Assembly: GCF_003610015.1 (NCBI RefSeq)
Contig: NZ_AP018933.1
Span: 1,488,001-1,552,000, forward strand
Origin: Zymobacter palmae
GTDB taxonomy: Bacteria > Pseudomonadota > Gammaproteobacteria > Pseudomonadales > Halomonadaceae
DNA: 64,000 bases
Reading direction: 5' to 3'
The number at the start of each line of letters is the position of its first letter. Within the stretch, counting starts at the first letter, position 1. Shown piece by piece: positions 7,228 to 60,725 of the stretch. The position numbers and the translations under genes were made by a program. The notes under the pieces were generated by a model. It had not been told where the DNA came from and made no database searches. It was given only the letters and a program-made list of their open reading frames with translations.

Positions 7228-7923
7228 ATGTCTTCTTTCGCCTTTTTCGTTACCGGCACCGATACGGAAGTCGGTAAGACGGCCGTCAGCTGTGCCCTGC
7301 TCTACAAAGCCCACCAACAGGGACTGACGACGGCCGCCAGCAAGCCTGTGGCCTGTGGCACCGAAATGACTGCCGAAGGACCGCGCAATGAAGATGCCGT
7401 TGCCCTGCATCAACAATGCCACCCCTCGCTGACACTCGAAGAGATCAATCCCGTGCTGTTCGATGCCCCCACATCGCCGCACATTGCCGCAGCGGAAGCC
7501 GGTGCCACACTCAGCGTCGAGCGCATGCTACCCCCCATACGGGAGATCCTGGCGCTGCGCCGTCAGTTCACGCTAGTGGAAGGTGCAGGTGGCTGGTACG
7601 TCCCCATCAACGATCATGAAGACTTGTCCGATGTTGCTATCGCTCTGGATCTGCCGCTGATACTGGTCGTCGGCATCAAGCTGGGCGCATTAAACCACGC
7701 CTTTCTGACCTACGAAGCGCTCAAGCGCTCGGGTCTGCCAATTGCCGGCTGGGTTGCCAATAGCGTGACACCGCCGCCCTCCGAGCACTGTCTCGACCAG
7801 TACCTCGATATTTTGCATCGCCGACTGGAAGCGCCCTGCCTGGGCATCGTGCCGTTTATGGATAACCCGCAGCCCGAGGCCATCGCGCAGCACCTCGACC
7901 TGACACCGCTGCTGGGTGCCTAA
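7228..7923 (+). CDS. bioD: ATP-dependent dethiobiotin synthetase
   Basis: Protein of 231 residues that forms the ureido ring of dethiobiotin from 7,8-diaminopelargonate, CO2 and ATP. The N-terminal P-loop reads VTGTDTEVGKT, followed by ASKPVACGT and the conserved VEGAGGWYVP. AAGGAG lies 7 nt before ATG 7228. It sits 56 nt after bioC and 42 nt before bioA in the same direction, so all six steps are in one run. Confidence 0.96.
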   Translation: MSSFAFFVTGTDTEVGKTAVSCALLYKAHQQGLTTAASKPVACGTEMTAEGPRNEDAVALHQQCHPSLTLEEINPVLFDAPTSPHIAAAEAGATLSVERMLPPIREILALRRQFTLVEGAGGWYVPINDHEDLSDVAIALDLPLILVVGIKLGALNHAFLTYEALKRSGLPIAGWVANSVTPPPSEHCLDQYLDILHRRLEAPCLGIVPFMDNPQPEAIAQHLDLTPLLGA

Positions 7924-7965
7924 ACTACCGCTTTCCGTCCATCGCCATACGCCATAGGAAACCTC

Positions 7966-9345
7966 ATGTCTGAGCCACGACTGAACGACCCGCATGCCCC
8001 CCTCAATCGCACGTGGATGCAGCGCGACCTGAACGCACTCTGGCACCCGTGTACCCAGATGAAGGATCACGAGCACTATCCACTCATTCCTGTGCGGCGC
8101 GGTGAAGGCGTATGGCTGGAAGACATGGCGGGTCAACACTACCTAGATGCCATCAGCTCGTGGTGGGTCAACATCCTTGGTCACGCCAATCCGCGTATCA
8201 ACGCCAAGCTTCGCACGCAGATGAACAAGCTCGAACATGTGATTCTGTCCGGCTTCACACATGAGCCGGTCATCCAACTTTCTGAACGTCTGGGGCGCAT
8301 TACGCCGGAAGGACTGGGCCATTGCTTCTACGGTGACAATGGTTCTGCCGCCATCGAAATCGCGCTGAAGATGAGCCTGCACTACTGGCGCAATATCGGG
8401 CGTCCCGAAAAGCGCCGTTTCCTGACCATCACCAACGGCTATCACGGTGAGACGGTCGGCGCGCTGTCGGTCAGCGATCTAGGACTGTACGCCGCTCCGT
8501 ATGAGTCGCTACTGTTTGACGTGCTGAAAGTGCCTTCACCGGATTGCTTCGGTCTGCCGCGTGAACAGTGGGACGAGCACGCGGCGCGCATGTTCGTGCA
8601 TATGGAACAAGCCGTGGCGCAGCACGCGCACGAACTGGCCGCGGTCATTCTGGAACCGCTAGTGCAGTGTGCCGGCGGGATGCGCATGTATCCACCCAGC
8701 TATTTAACCCGACTGCGCGCGCTGTGCGACCACCACGGAGTACAGCTGATCGTTGATGAGATCGCGGTGGGGTTCGGGCGCACGGGCACGTTGTTTGCCT
8801 GTGAACAGGCCGGTATCCGCCCCGACTATCTGTGCCTATCCAAGGCATTGACGGGCGGCTATCTGCCCCTGTCCGTGGTGCTCACCACCGATCAGATATA
8901 CGACGCCTTCTATGATGACTACACCACAATGAAGGCTTTCTTGCATTCGCACAGCTACACGGGCAATGCACTGGCCTGCGCCACCGCATTGGCCACGCTC
9001 GACATTTTGGAAGAAGACGATGTCATTGCAGGTAATCGTCACCGAGCACAGCGCATGGCCGCCGCTGCCGAGACGTTCCGTACTCACCCTCATGTAGGAG
9101 ACGTGCGTCAGACGGGCATGATCGTGGCCATCGAAATGGTCAAGGACAAAGCCTCGCTGACCCCTTTCCCGTTCGAGGAGCGCCGGGGCATGCGCGCCTA
9201 CGAAGTAGCGCTAGCGCACGGCGTACTGCTGCGCCCGTTGGGTAATGTGCTGTACTGGATGCCCCCTTATATCATCAGCGATGACGAAATTGATCACCTT
9301 GCCGAAGTCACTGCACTGGCGCTGGAAGCCGCCACAGCCTCCTAA
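7966..9345 (+). CDS. bioA: Adenosylmethionine-8-amino-7-oxononanoate aminotransferase
   Basis: Class III PLP aminotransferase of 459 residues that uses SAM as amino donor. Landmarks are LWHPCTQMKDHEHYPLIPV near the N-terminus, SSWWVNILGH, the glycine-serine turn YGDNGSAAIE, IVDEIAVGFGRTG, and the PLP lysine in LCLSKALTGGYLPL. It is somewhat longer than the E. coli enzyme and closer to the Pseudomonas length class. It is the last gene of the biotin operon, and a strong hairpin follows its stop. In E. coli bioA is divergent, while here it is collinear. Confidence 0.95.
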   Translation: MSEPRLNDPHAPLNRTWMQRDLNALWHPCTQMKDHEHYPLIPVRRGEGVWLEDMAGQHYLDAISSWWVNILGHANPRINAKLRTQMNKLEHVILSGFTHEPVIQLSERLGRITPEGLGHCFYGDNGSAAIEIALKMSLHYWRNIGRPEKRRFLTITNGYHGETVGALSVSDLGLYAAPYESLLFDVLKVPSPDCFGLPREQWDEHAARMFVHMEQAVAQHAHELAAVILEPLVQCAGGMRMYPPSYLTRLRALCDHHGVQLIVDEIAVGFGRTGTLFACEQAGIRPDYLCLSKALTGGYLPLSVVLTTDQIYDAFYDDYTTMKAFLHSHSYTGNALACATALATLDILEEDDVIAGNRHRAQRMAAAAETFRTHPHVGDVRQTGMIVAIEMVKDKASLTPFPFEERRGMRAYEVALAHGVLLRPLGNVLYWMPPYIISDDEIDHLAEVTALALEAATAS

Positions 9346-54795: not shown

Positions 54796-55115
54796 GCTGG
54801 CCTCCTAGATTCAGCTGTGTTCTGACTGAAGATACATTCATCCAATGCCGCGATAAATCAAGCCCCTACCCGCTACAAGGGACTCTACGGATCAGACGGT
54901 TTGCGCTATAGTAACCTTCATTTGGCGGTATGTCGCACTCAAAGGCCGTGCGTAACTGGCCCGTTTTCATCATTTTTCCGCCGATAAGACTTTCACTATA
55001 AGGGCTTTGTTTGCCATGTACAAAGCAGCCACGAGATACTCATCATGCTGCCTGCTGTCACCTTTTACCCCTACACTTGCCTCCCGTTGCCAGCCTGCGT
55101 CACGGAGGCATCACG
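54796..55115. other. Divergent region between proA and the DedA-PAP2 gene
   Basis: These 320 nt hold promoters for both directions. A TATAGT hexamer near 54911 is a weak -10 candidate for the plus strand. No gene, repeat or hairpin was recognised. Confidence 0.4.
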
Positions 55116-56495
55116 ATGGATGAGCTAATCGCGTCACTGCCGGGCTCTACGCTAACGGTTGCCATTGCTATCTTCATCGTTGCTGCCATCGAATCTGTAG
55201 CCGTGCTGGGGCTGATTCTACCCGGCACCATCATGATGTTCGGCGTTGCACTGCGCGCCGGCCAGATCGACATGAACGTCTATCTGATGCTGGCAAGCGG
55301 AGCGCTCGGCGCTACCGTCGGCGACAGCATCAGCTATTGGTTGGGCAAAACCCAGTGCCATCGCATTCCGCGCCTCTGGCCCTTCAGCCGCCACCCATCG
55401 TGGCTGGCGCGCGGCCAAATGTTCTTCAACAAGCACGGCGGCCGTTCGATTTTGATCGGACGCTTCGTCGGCCCTGTGCGCCCCCTCATTCCCATGATTG
55501 CGGGGATGATGCGGATGCCGCAGTCACGCTTTCTGGTCGTCAACGTCATTTCCGCCATTGGTTGGGCACCGCTCTATCTATTGCCCGGCTACTGCGCGGG
55601 CCAGAATGCACACTTTTCAGCGGCAGCGTCGATCTGGATCGGCGGGTTGCTGGCGGCCTTTCTGGTTGGTGGGTTTCTGCTGTCGTGGGGACGTACACTG
55701 TTCGCGCCGGGAGCACGGCTCTATTACGCGCTGGAGCGCCGCATGCGTGCGCCCTCCTGCCGCCGCCGCTTCTGGAACGCGCTCAGTAGTCCGTTCGACG
55801 GTTTCCCACTAGGGGCCATCGTGCTGCTGAGCATCAGTCTTCCCTGCCTAATCGCATGGACGTTCATCGTCTGGAAGGCGCTCCCTCTGCCGCTCGGCAT
55901 CGATACCATGACCCGTGATCTGTTCGCGGATTTCGCCAAGCTGCCCTATATGACGACGGCCGCGAAATTCGCTTCCATGATCGGTGATGGCCCCGGTCTG
56001 CTGGCACTCAGCCTACCGTGGATCATTTGGTGGACATGGCGTCGCTACTACGCCATTGCCCTGCACTGGGCAGGTGCCATGCTGGCCGTACCGATCGTGA
56101 ACTGGGGCCTTAAACATCTGTTGAATCGCCCTCGCCCGTCAGGACTACTTCACTCCTACTCCTATCCCAGCTCACACACATCAGGGGCGGCCATCTTCTG
56201 CTGCCTGATGGCGACCTACCTGATGGCCCACCTTCCTGCGCGCCTGCGCAGCCTGTGCTTCTGGACGGCACTAGCATTGGCGACCCTGATGGGGCTGTCG
56301 CGCTTGGTCTACGGCGTCCACTGGCTCAGCGATCTTATTGGAGGCGCACTGCTGGGGCTGACACTGCACGCGATCGTCAACATCAGCTATCACGCGTTCT
56401 CTCGCAAGGAAGTGAGCTGGTGTGGTGCATGGCTGCCCATGCTGGGCATGGTCGTGCTGCTGGCCCTGCGCATGTGGCTGCTGCCACTGCACTAA
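55116..56495 (+). CDS. DedA-PAP2 fusion membrane phosphatase
   Basis: Protein of 459 residues. Residues 1-195 are a DedA/SNARE-associated domain with ESVAVLGLILPGT and GRFVGPVRPLIPMIAGMMRM. Residues 250-459 are a PAP2 phosphatase with KHLLNRPRPSG, YPSSHTSGA and SRLVYGVHWLSD. DedA proteins flip undecaprenyl phosphate or other lipids, and PAP2 enzymes dephosphorylate the pyrophosphate form. The fusion therefore suits carrier-lipid recycling, which is inference. GGAGG lies 7 nt before ATG 55116, so the longer upstream frame is not needed. Confidence 0.9.
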   Translation: MDELIASLPGSTLTVAIAIFIVAAIESVAVLGLILPGTIMMFGVALRAGQIDMNVYLMLASGALGATVGDSISYWLGKTQCHRIPRLWPFSRHPSWLARGQMFFNKHGGRSILIGRFVGPVRPLIPMIAGMMRMPQSRFLVVNVISAIGWAPLYLLPGYCAGQNAHFSAAASIWIGGLLAAFLVGGFLLSWGRTLFAPGARLYYALERRMRAPSCRRRFWNALSSPFDGFPLGAIVLLSISLPCLIAWTFIVWKALPLPLGIDTMTRDLFADFAKLPYMTTAAKFASMIGDGPGLLALSLPWIIWWTWRRYYAIALHWAGAMLAVPIVNWGLKHLLNRPRPSGLLHSYSYPSSHTSGAAIFCCLMATYLMAHLPARLRSLCFWTALALATLMGLSRLVYGVHWLSDLIGGALLGLTLHAIVNISYHAFSRKEVSWCGAWLPMLGMVVLLALRMWLLPLH

Positions 56496-56582: not shown

Positions 56583-57980
56583 TTACGAATGGCGAGCGGC
56601 CAGTGCGTCCAGTAAGCGCTGATGAATATTCTCAAATCCACCGTTGCTCATCACCACGATACGATCACCGGGACGCGCTTCGACGACAAGGGCGTCGACC
56701 AGTGCGTTCACGTCATCGCAGATCATCGCGGGTGCTCGTGTCGCACATGTCACGTCTTCCAGCGACCACCCCAGCCCCGCCGGGCGGTACCAGAAGCTGA
56801 GATCAGCATCATCGACACTGGCCGCCAGCCGATCGCGCAGCGCGCCCATTTTCATGGTGTTGGAGCGCGGTTCCAGTACGGCCAGCACACGACCATGCCC
56901 CTGCTGATCAACCATGGCACGCCAACTGGCCAGCGTCAGTGCCACGGCGGTCGGGTGATGAGCGAAATCGTCAATCACGGCAATGTCATTGACCACACCA
57001 CGCACTTCTTGACGACGACGAGGTGCCTTGAAGCGGGACAGTGCCGAAGCAGACTGCGCCATAGAAACGCCCGCATGGTAAGCCGCGGCGGCGGCCGCTA
57101 GGGCATTGCGCACGTTGTACTCGCCGTGCAACGCCCACTGCACGTCAGCCTGTATAACGCCTTGCTGCGGATCCGTATAACTCAGTGTGAACCGCTGCCC
57201 CAGCGCATCATGCAGTTGGTACTGCCACTGACAACCATCGTGCGTTACCGCACCGAACTGCTCAACTGGCGTCCAGCATCCCTGCGCGATAACACGCGCC
57301 AACGCGGCCTCACCCGCTGCCTGCAGGATACGGCCGTTACCGGGCACCGTGCGCACCAGATGATGGAACTGGCGCTCAATAGCGGCCAAATCAGGGAAGA
57401 TATCCGCATGATCAAACTCAAGATTATTGAGTACGGCCACATCGGGACGGTAGTGAACAAACTTGGAGCGCTTGTCAAAGAAAGCACTGTCGTATTCATC
57501 GGCCTCGACAACAAAAGGCGCATTGGCATCGCCCAGCGCTGAAGACACTCCCAAGTTGAGCGGCACGCCGCCAACTAGAAAGCCGGGATTGAGGCCCGCA
57601 TCACTCAGGATCCATGCCAGCATGCTAGTGGTCGTGGTCTTACCGTGCGTGCCCGCTACGGCCAGCACCTGACGCTGACCCAGAATATGATCCCGCAGCC
57701 ACTGAGGCCCACTGGTATACGGCAGGCGCCGATTCAATACGGCCTCCACCTCAGCATTACCGCGCGACATGGCATTCCCGATCACAACAAGATCGGGCGT
57801 CGGTTCAAGGTTATCAGCAGAATAGCCTTCGATCAGATGAATACCAGCATCTTCCAGCTGGGTGCTCATCGGGGGATAGACATGAGCATCCGATCCGGTG
57901 ACGTGGTGGCCTGCATCGCGCGCCAGACGCGCCAGACTACCCATAAACGTACCGCAGATGCCCAGAATATGAATATGCAT
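56583..57980 (-). CDS. mpl: UDP-MurNAc:tripeptide ligase (peptidoglycan recycling)
   Basis: Mur-ligase family protein of 465 residues that joins recycled L-Ala-gamma-D-Glu-meso-DAP to UDP-MurNAc. It starts MHIHILGICGTFMGSLA, has the ATP loop VAGTHGKTTTTSM, EADEYDSAFFDKRSKF and DDFAHHPTAV, the Mpl-specific spacing of the family. It belongs with the wall-recycling theme of the lytic transglycosylases upstream. It is probably monocistronic, 185 nt downstream of the phosphatase-kinase gene. Confidence 0.96.
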   Translation of the reverse strand: MHIHILGICGTFMGSLARLARDAGHHVTGSDAHVYPPMSTQLEDAGIHLIEGYSADNLEPTPDLVVIGNAMSRGNAEVEAVLNRRLPYTSGPQWLRDHILGQRQVLAVAGTHGKTTTTSMLAWILSDAGLNPGFLVGGVPLNLGVSSALGDANAPFVVEADEYDSAFFDKRSKFVHYRPDVAVLNNLEFDHADIFPDLAAIERQFHHLVRTVPGNGRILQAAGEAALARVIAQGCWTPVEQFGAVTHDGCQWQYQLHDALGQRFTLSYTDPQQGVIQADVQWALHGEYNVRNALAAAAAAYHAGVSMAQSASALSRFKAPRRRQEVRGVVNDIAVIDDFAHHPTAVALTLASWRAMVDQQGHGRVLAVLEPRSNTMKMGALRDRLAASVDDADLSFWYRPAGLGWSLEDVTCATRAPAMICDDVNALVDALVVEARPGDRIVVMSNGGFENIHQRLLDALAARHS

Positions 57981-58057
57981 GCGTCGGATTGCCTTTTGTC
58001 CTGTGGTTCAGGAGAAGCACGCCCACCCTGCCCGGCAGTGCGTGACAAAAAATGAAA

Positions 58058-58075
58058 TGCGCCTAAAAAGGCGCA
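58058..58075 (-). terminator. Terminator of the phosphatase-kinase-like gene
   Basis: TGCGCC (58058-58063) and GGCGCA (58070-58075) form a short GC stem with a 6-nt loop. On the minus strand it is followed by TTTCATTTTTTG. It lies about 90 nt past the stop. Confidence 0.6.
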
Positions 58076-58165
58076 CGCATATATCAGGATATCGGATCGG
58101 CACACCGAAAGGCGCAGCCAGAATGGGAAAATTATCGTATTTCAGCGCGATAGCCGTATCCTGCG

Positions 58166-59905
58166 CTAGCGCGACCACCAGGTGATCAACCACACCACGA
58201 TCAATACGCCCACCGCGACAGGCCACCAGCGCGAACCGGAACGCGCTTTGGGCTGAAGGTGACGCTGCTCTGGGCGTAACGCCACCAGAAACTCCGATAA
58301 ACGCCGGAAGCGCAGCCCACGACGCGGCGATAACGCGCGCTGGAGCGCATCATCCAGCGCAGGTGAGACACTTGGCACACGCTCGCGCAGTGGAATATAG
58401 GTCATCTGCGCACGCGCTGCCTCGCTGCGGATACTGTCGAGCGGCACGTCATACGGCATTTCACCGTGTGGCTCACGCCCAGTCCAGCGATAGCTCAGCA
58501 ACCAGTAAATCAGGGCCGCGAGGGAAAACTGATCGCTACGCCGCCCCACTTCACCGTTCAGCGCATACTCCGGCGCATTGAACGGCGTCAGTCCGATATC
58601 GCAGGTCAGCGATAGCAGTTCCTGCTTGGAGGCCAGTTCGCGGTCTTCACAGGCGGAAAAGTCGACCAGCATGATCTGGCCATGCGCGTCGATCAAGAAC
58701 GACTCGGGCCGCAGCCGCTGATGAATAACATTGTTGTGCGTCAGCGTCGATACCGCCTTGCACATCTGGCGCGCCAGATCGAGACGATGCTCGTAAGAAA
58801 CGTTCGGATGCGCACGCAGCCAATCGGGTAGTAGATCACCTTCGATGTAGTTCAGCAGATAGTAATAGTAGTTGCGCGGGCGTGGAGGATTGGCCACGCG
58901 ATTGATAAACGGTGAGCGGACGCGTTCGATCAGCTCACGCTGGTGCACGAAATGCTTGAGAAACGGGCTGCGCCGCGACAATTGGGGGCTGATGGTTTTG
59001 AGTACGAAACGGCGCCCACTGTCAGGATCCAACACCCGATAAATGCGCACTTTCTCGGTACGTTGCGTGACCTCTTCGATCAGGTAACCGTCCAGTTCAT
59101 CCCCCACGCGCAGCTCGGGAGGCACCGGAGGCTCCCCGTCCAGCAGCGATGCTGTTTGCTGCTGTTCATCGGAAGTCGCTTCGATCTGATCGACACGCAC
59201 CAACTGGAAGCAAAACGAATCGTCGCCATAACCACGTTCGCTGGCCTGCTCGCTAGCACGGTGGCAGAGCTGCTGACAGGCTTCATCCAGGTCGATGGCA
59301 TGCTGACTGATGACCTGCACATAGTCACTAGGCGTAAGCGTGCCGTTCACCGCCTGAGTGGTGAACAGGAAGATGTCCCCCGGCTTGACCGGCAGGCGCA
59401 TGTATTCGATATCGAGATTGACGTCCATCCCCAGCGCTCGCGAAGGATAGCGATAGCCGCCCAGCTCGGTAATGTGATCACGCGTCAGCTGATCGCATTC
59501 CGCGCCACGGATACGGTAGACACGGGTATCCCCAGCATGGAACAGGTGTGCCATGTCGCGCTTAAAGATCATGGTGGAGAAGGCACTGACATAGCTGCCA
59601 CCGCGGATAAAGCGGCTCTGGCTATAGCACCACATATTGAGCGCACGCAGTACACGATGCACCGCATACTTGGTGTCCCAGTGCTCCGGCGTGGAATAGT
59701 AATCGTCGATGAACCCTCGCACCGCCAGATCCGCCGCCTGACGGGCAATGGCATTGCGTGACGGGGAGTCAGCGATGACGGCGCATCCTCCGTACTGTGG
59801 CTCCGGCAATACCTGAGGGCATTGCACCGCCATGAAAGAACGGTGATGGCGAGGCATGGCGGCCACGAAAGCTTGCCCAGAGCTCAGTATCAGTTGATGT
59901 GCCAA
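58166..59905 (-). CDS. PP2C-phosphatase/Ser-Thr-kinase-like protein with degenerate catalytic sites
   Basis: Protein of 579 residues. Residues 1-245 follow the PP2C fold ([18 protein letters not shown]), residues 270-540 a protein kinase fold, and the C-terminus is one membrane helix ([18 protein letters not shown]). The family is usually a bifunctional kinase/phosphatase. Here the first PP2C Asp is absent (HHRSF, about residues 20-24), ADG is ADS (46-47), and the later DG pair is Gln-Ala (TTQAV, Gln184). In the kinase the catalytic-loop Asp is Arg397 (HQRLRPES). The Lys in FVLKTIS and DFS remain. Both halves may be non-catalytic. TTG 59905, with GGAG 8 nt upstream, suits the family start. 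Confidence 0.85.
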
Positions 59906-60191
59906 CGAAACGTCTCCATGCAACATAAGGGAACATATAATAGAGAGACACGCGCCTGTTTTCGATGCGCAAAAAGTCGGGGGCATCTTTCGCCAAAGCC
60001 ACGAAACATGCCGTCTCGAAACGATAATTCAGCGGATTGCTTATCGGCAGATTGGTAATCCCCGCAACGACTTCGTATACTCTGGCGCTGTCCACGGACA
60101 GCGGCTCAAGGTATATGTGTGCGTCAAGTGCCTGCGCTTGAGCCAACTGCCGCACCTTCAACCTGTATTCATGACATCAAGGCCTTTCTTC

Positions 60192-60725
60192 ATGAGTTTC
60201 AAAGACATCCCTGCGGGCAAGTCACTGCCCGATGACATCTACGTCGTCATCGAAATTCCGGCACAGCACACGCCGATCAAATACGAAATCGACAAGGATT
60301 TCGATGCGCTGATGGTCGACCGCTTTATGGCCACTCCGATGTTCTATCCGGCCAACTACGGTTACATCTCTCGCACACTGGCTGACGACGGTGACCCCCT
60401 CGATGCACTGGTCGTTACGCCGTATCCTGTTCAGCCGGGTAGCGTCATCCGCGCTCGTGCCGTCGGCATGCTGAACATGTCCGACGAAGCCGGTGAAGAT
60501 ACCAAACTGGTCTGCGTACCGCACGCCAAACTCACCACGCTGTACAATGATGTCAAAGAAGTGACCGATCTTCCGGAACTTCTGCGCCAGCAAATTGCCC
60601 ACTTCTTCGAGCACTACAAAGACCTCGAAGCAGGCAAATGGGTCAAGGTTGACGGCTGGGAAGGCGCTCAGGCAGCACGCGACGCCATCCTCAAAGCCGT
60701 TGAGGCCTACAACGCACAGAAATGA
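60192..60725 (+). CDS. ppa: Inorganic pyrophosphatase
   Basis: Family I soluble pyrophosphatase of 177 residues, nearly the E. coli length. Its motifs are [40 protein letters not shown] (with the metal-binding Asp cluster) and the closing [22 protein letters not shown] lies 9 nt before ATG 60192. In-frame ATG codons further upstream lack support. It is divergent from the phosphatase-kinase-like gene. Confidence 0.97.

Follow-up and report, generated by a model that had tools for sequence, protein, structure and literature searches.

The window, a 64,000-nucleotide stretch of the Zymobacter palmae genome, carries on its reverse strand an open frame of 579 amino acids (58166-59905) that starts with TTG and has a GGAG 8 nt upstream of that codon. 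The gene, its domains, and its surroundings are as follows.

58166..59905, reverse strand: whole gene for the pseudo-phosphatase/pseudo-kinase (579 aa, starting at TTG)
59186..59905, reverse strand: PP2C-fold domain, residues 1-240, without the catalytic/metal Asp at positions 23 and 184
58262..59116, reverse strand: protein-kinase-fold domain, residues 264-548, with Lys303 and DFG Asp415 kept
58169..58225, reverse strand: membrane helix at the C terminus, judged hydrophobic by eye, residues 561-579 (AF2 helix, 560-577)
59937..59965, reverse strand: TCGAAA-17-TATTAT, which resembles a promoter by consensus only and lies upstream of the TTG codon
58057..58076, reverse strand: terminator-like hairpin and T run just downstream of the gene (consensus match)
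60177..60725, forward strand: divergent neighbor that we take from its sequence to be ppa, inorganic pyrophosphatase
56583..57980, reverse strand: downstream neighbor that we take from its sequence to be mpl, murein peptide ligase

By consensus match only, the region holds three promoter-like sites where 1.3 are expected, along with two terminator-like hairpins where 1.6 are expected. RNA folding downstream of the gene is unremarkable (z = -1.07). When we searched the Z. palmae genome, the sole match was the protein encoded at 58166-59905 itself.

From its domain order, the protein had originally been predicted to resemble membrane-anchored bifunctional PP2C/kinase proteins, with its folding residues, membrane helix, and frame preserved. 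Structural comparison agreed, placing an N-terminal PP2C fold, a C-terminal kinase fold, and a C-terminal membrane helix in one open chain. Pfam assigned Pkinase to the window protein (E = 2.7e-18) and none of its PP2C families, with matches considered up to E = 1, and the NCBIfam match to the Stp1-type PP2C family fell far under its cut-off (42 of 230 bits). We built an AF2 model from 50 sequences, namely, the window protein and 49 of the 80 named loci described below (mean pLDDT, 79; pTM, 0.53). Residues 264-547 of the model resembled PknB (Z = 26.1, rmsd 2.5, 248 residues), and residues 2-240 resembled the bacterial PP2C 2pk0 (Z = 24.9, rmsd 2.7, 223 residues). PppA was the one solved structure matched by a profile of the dead PP2C domain (E = 1e-4; cut-off, 0.01), and an Asp of PppA stands opposite Gln184 of the window protein in that profile match.

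Judged by the residues at their motif positions, both catalytic centers are lost from the window protein, as alignment with active members confirmed. In the PP2C part, the motif-1 Asp is replaced by Ser23, the TDG Asp by Gln184, and the ADG Gly by Ser47. In the kinase part, the HRD Asp is replaced by Arg397, the alpha-C Glu by Gln322 (which aligns opposite the alpha-C Glu of PknB), the HRDxxxxN Asn by Ser402, and the DFG Gly by Ser417. Asp46, Asp126, Asp229, Lys303, and Asp415 are kept. The original prediction had listed loss of the first Asp (Ser23 here) and the DG Asp (Gln184) of the phosphatase and Arg397 at the catalytic Asp of the kinase, all of which were read correctly according to the ortholog alignment; Ser47, Gln322, Ser402, and Ser417 are losses beyond that list.

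These substitutions are shared by orthologs across the Halomonadaceae. We sampled 60 loci (L001-L060) that combined the best 30 family matches with 30 chosen genomes and covered 24 of 24 sampled genera. A 59-row alignment was made from the window protein and 58 further loci, namely, L002-L060 without the frameshifted L054. Among the catalytic/metal acids of PP2C (NxD, ADG, TDG, and DN), the NxD and TDG Asp are lost in all 59 rows, with Ser at motif 1 throughout and Gln (48 rows), Arg (7), or Pro (4) at TDG. The ADG Gly has given way to Ser (49), Thr (8), or Ala (2). The ADG Asp (Asp46) is kept in 58 rows and Asp126 in all 59, while the DN position (229) holds Asp in 28, Glu in 19, and other residues in 12. 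On the kinase side, the alpha-C Glu is Gln in every row, and the HRD Asp (397) is replaced in every row by one of eight letters (Gln 25, Arg 17, Gly 7, Ala 3, His 3, Asn 2, Leu 1, and Ser 1). The kinase Lys is kept in 57/59 rows, the DFG Asp in 58/59, and the catalytic-loop Asn in 52/59; the Lys-Asn-Asp triad is complete in 50/59. Overall, each dead row (n = 59) keeps two to five of the nine catalytic letters and has lost at least four. With a pseudokinase defined by loss of at least one of the VAIK Lys, HRD Asp, and DFG Asp, the replaced HRD Asp and the retained PknB-like fold place the kinase part in that class. Likewise, the PP2C part is a PP2C-fold pseudophosphatase, its fold being kept and metal-binding Asp lost.

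A second set gave the same result. Of 235 loci found, it took the best 80 (the named loci), all from Halomonadaceae and spanning 16 genera; the two sets may have species in common. Motif-1 Asp is Ser in 80/80, and the TDG Asp, HRD Asp, and alpha-C Glu are each lost in 80/80. Residues were read in these two sets. Among 250 family genomes, 249 had a match to the gene. One of these matches is uncertain (G085, 77% complete), since its E value of 1e-76 is no better than a paralog can score (1.5e-86). The one genome without a match (G088) is 88% complete.

The clade containing the window protein (window, L002, L003, and L046) has lost the catalytic-loop Asn in 4/4 members and the Lys in one (L046). 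At residues 303 and 402 (about 58700-59000, reverse strand), this clade is thus shedding even nucleotide-binding residues, as if degeneration had entered a second stage.

Homologs with the same domain order outside the family stand in sharp contrast. We read 117 of them (57 + 60) from 31 families among the matches listed, after dropping L131, which belongs to the Halomonadaceae. All nine catalytic letters are present in 117/117, as they are in the six full-length paralogs read within the family. Because the four main losses occur in 59/59 orthologs and 0/117 out-of-family homologs, they are not shared by chance, and no intermediate was seen among the 117 intact and 59 dead rows. In domain order, length, and C-terminal hydrophobic helix, these intact bacterial PP2C-Ser/Thr kinase fusions are like the dead protein. 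Some also have the same neighbors (ppa, pfp, mpl, and dsbD), and several sit in nitrate-assimilation loci. PA1782 is probably a nitrate-locus fusion of this kind. Pseudomonas aeruginosa has at least three Ser/Thr kinases, and PA1782 is named among them (PMC8560001).

We placed 82 proteins (19 dead and 63 intact) in a quick maximum-likelihood tree made with a short search, no bootstrap, and a midpoint root; catalytic columns were included. A 265-aa PP2C-only paralog at L065 was excluded from the tree and from the active comparison set. The dead rows fell on one side of a single branch (SH-aLRT = 100), and their stem measured 0.7 changes per site. They were set against all 63 intact rows and adjoined no single intact subfamily, including the syntenic ones. 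Because the stem is so long, the position of the dead group in the tree is unsure.

The dead gene is under purifying selection. We estimated dN/dS by NG86 in 32 pairs, using each locus once and dropping pairs with dS of at least 1.5 or undefined values. The median was 0.054 for the whole gene (26/32 pairs usable), 0.031 for the PP2C part (27 pairs), and 0.0615 for the kinase part (26 pairs). Medians for its neighbors were 0.0225 for ppa (30 pairs), 0.038 for pfp (24), 0.095 for mpl (16), and 0.162 for dsbD (23), so the dead PP2C part is more constrained than mpl. The window protein matches its nearest relative at 56-59%, which is too distant for dN/dS. Judged beside its neighbors, it is not evolving unusually fast, with a p-distance ratio to Halotalea of 1.09 compared with 1.18 for mpl, 1.10 for dsbD, and 0.94 for ppa. 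Three positions are fixed for different letters in the intact and dead groups (D23S, L154P, and E322Q), and D397, D229, and N230 are among those released in the dead group. Another 18 are newly conserved there, including G150 and Y151 in an 11-residue segment; AF2 confidence is low at residues 145-163, which overlap this pair.

Pseudokinases and pseudophosphatases are each known separately. Bacterial pseudokinase families include ActPs1-3, GLW, CP1, DYD, and DLHK according to a 2025 review (PMC12599244), in whose text the word PP2C does not appear. These families resemble the dead proteins in combining a kinase fold with broken motifs, and several have a transmembrane region after the kinase (PMC12599244). 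The dead proteins differ in that most keep the Lys and DFG Asp and lose the HRD Asp and alpha-C Glu. As described in the review (PMC12599244), GLW pseudokinases have GLW in place of HRD and Leu or Trp in place of the beta-3 Lys, whereas the proteins here have HQx and keep the Lys in 57/59 rows. CP1 pseudokinases are linked to COG3899 and lack a transmembrane region, whereas the window protein is PP2C linked and has a terminal helix; DLHK pseudokinases keep the HRD Asp and also lack a transmembrane region, whereas here that Asp is lost and the helix is present. The MviN pseudokinase domain and EssB/YukC are membrane-associated bacterial pseudokinases that work by binding, but no PP2C domain is described for them in the review, and their architecture and lineage are different (PMC12599244). 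Kinetoplastid "kinatases" carry a phosphatase and a pseudokinase in one chain, for which scaffolding has been suggested. They are eukaryotic proteins with leucine-rich repeats and an unrelated DSP-type phosphatase described as active, such that only their kinase domains are dead (PMC2175518). Among the literature matches listed, with preprints and most subscription papers outside coverage, none describes a bacterial protein whose PP2C and kinase domains are both dead.

The ppa gene lies divergently beside the dead gene in 80/80 named loci, and pfp (phosphofructokinase family; Pfam PFK) is in the flank of 70/80; one of the ten loci without pfp, L198, has almost no downstream flank. In relatives, pfp sits between the pseudoenzyme gene and mpl (e.g., L137, 9868-11136). 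It is absent at 57980-58166 of the window, and a search without a positive control gave no pfp match elsewhere in the Z. palmae genome. Around intact out-of-family homologs, at least one of ppa, pfp, mpl, and dsbD was nearby in 11/20 chosen regions and none in 9/20; among loci L079-L136, which mostly have shorter flanks, 5/58 had any of the four. Three intact homologs (L220, L225, and L231) have nirB and nirD between ppa and the kinase gene (PK). Pfam was used to check these names in L225 (nirB and nirD) and L231 (nirB), as well as an MFS transporter in L217, with the rest assigned by first-residue likeness. Because nirB/nirD come between ppa and PK in some intact out-of-family homologs, the nearness of ppa to the dead gene may be inherited, and the pyrophosphate theme hinted at by ppa and pfp is weakened.

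At E = 1e-150, nirB was matched in 23/28 chosen family genomes. In 15 of these, it was on another contig from the dead gene, and in the other 8 the two lay 315 kb or more apart, where distances are by coordinates and separate contigs may still be near at their ends. An active-type paralog was found in 8/28 genomes, a set chosen to include two-copy genomes; for five of these eight paralogs, nirB is no more than about 17 kb away. Five of the 28, including Z. palmae, have no nirB match at this threshold yet retain the dead gene, which weakens a present-day nitrate role; Z. palmae also lacks an active-type copy. Synteny suggests that the dead gene is what remains of a locus for nitrate assimilation (ppa-nirD-nirB-PK). 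Most simply, the nir/nas genes departed and a kinase/phosphatase of such a locus stayed in place to become the dead gene. The tree is compatible with this descent but does not demonstrate it, and because it puts the dead group beside no syntenic intact rows, synteny is the evidence for a nitrate-locus origin.

The salt-loving Halomonadaceae appear to keep under strong selection a two-part signaling protein that has lost both active sites. We consider it probable that this is a fixed, family-wide, doubly dead pseudoenzyme, derived from an active tail-anchored PP2C-kinase and kept for a noncatalytic job at the inner membrane; this estimate also covers the likely nitrate-locus ancestry and the loss of sites and neighbors in the Halomonadaceae ancestor. 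The ancestral protein would most likely have belonged to a nitrate-assimilation locus ordered ppa-nirD-nirB-transporter-PK, with pfp and mpl beyond. Both active sites and the nir/nas neighbors would have been lost in the ancestor of the family and the dead protein retained at the membrane. The protein is most likely a membrane-tethered noncatalytic regulator or scaffold. We infer the sensor or scaffold role proposed in the original prediction. The two lobes may bind a partner, possibly the ancestral substrate. In most species, where the Lys-Asn-Asp triad is kept (50/59), nucleotide binding is plausible, perhaps as a conformational switch. It would not be a strict need, since the window's clade lacks the Asn in 4/4 members and the Lys in one, and loss of the Asn favors plain scaffolding there. 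More tentatively, the nitrate-locus PP2C-kinase may have been converted in place throughout the family into a universally kept, doubly dead membrane hub with a new (near-)essential role, perhaps nucleotide gated or nucleotide transferring.

Several alternatives seem less probable. The kept Lys303, Asp415, Asp46, Asp126, and often Asp/Glu229 could serve some unorthodox chemistry. One alternative, which we regard as unlikely, is that the pseudokinase gained another nucleotide chemistry, AMPylation or glutamylation, through the Lys and DFG Asp and without the HRD Asp. SelO and SidJ are bacterial pseudokinases with such new activities (PMC12599244), and retention of the Lys, DFG Asp, and catalytic-loop Asn in most rows is consistent with the idea. 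The window's clade speaks against it, having lost the Asn throughout and, in L046, the Lys as well, as does the finding that E136 is the only acid among the 18 newly conserved positions. In the only comparison made, Pfam and NCBIfam gave no SelO or SidJ family for the window protein at E up to 1. An AMPylation-type activity is conceivable, above all outside the window's clade. It is still less probable that canonical phosphatase or kinase chemistry persists with residues from other positions. The PP2C part does retain Asp46, Asp126, and, in 28/59 rows, Asp229 (with Glu in 19), but E136 is again the sole newly conserved acid, position 397 varies among eight letters, and the alpha-C Glu is gone from every row; replacement residues were not seen.

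Another possible role is that the dead protein acts on an active nitrate-locus paralog, as a decoy or a dominant regulator, for example by pairing with it. We rate this as improbable as persistent canonical chemistry. The eight genomes with an active-type paralog provide a possible target, but in 20/28, Z. palmae included, only the dead protein was matched at E = 1e-30, so such a role cannot be general. Least credible of all is a decaying relic. A single frameshifted ortholog among the 60 loci could be taken as a sign of decay, but open frames in the other 59/60, the low dN/dS, and a match in 249/250 genomes led us to reject it. A conserved pseudoenzyme rather than decay, as originally proposed, accords with the shared losses, the selection estimate, and the intact frames. 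Beyond that proposal, our analysis adds the family-wide fixation, the clean contrast with intact relatives, and a likely link to a lost nitrate-assimilation locus.

With both opposing activities gone from one chain across a whole family and intact relatives in nearby families serving as "before" states, the Halomonadaceae dead fusion is a clean test case of a change from enzyme to scaffold. In Halomonas genomes, these genes are presumably annotated as bifunctional kinase/phosphatase, which would mislead.

Three local observations can be added. The frameshifted ortholog (G204; L054, also L066 at G204:C1:3475000-3484000) is split near query residues 424-432, perhaps through faulty sequencing or because the gene was lost recently. 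In G004, the 265-aa PP2C paralog (L065, about 7400-8250, forward strand) stands alone without a kinase domain, keeps the four phosphatase Asp, and sits upstream of an intact PP2C-kinase. Finally, an ORF at 55011-56495 of the window adjoins mpl and, judged by eye from its motifs, presumably encodes a fusion between a DedA-type membrane protein and a PAP2 phosphatase.
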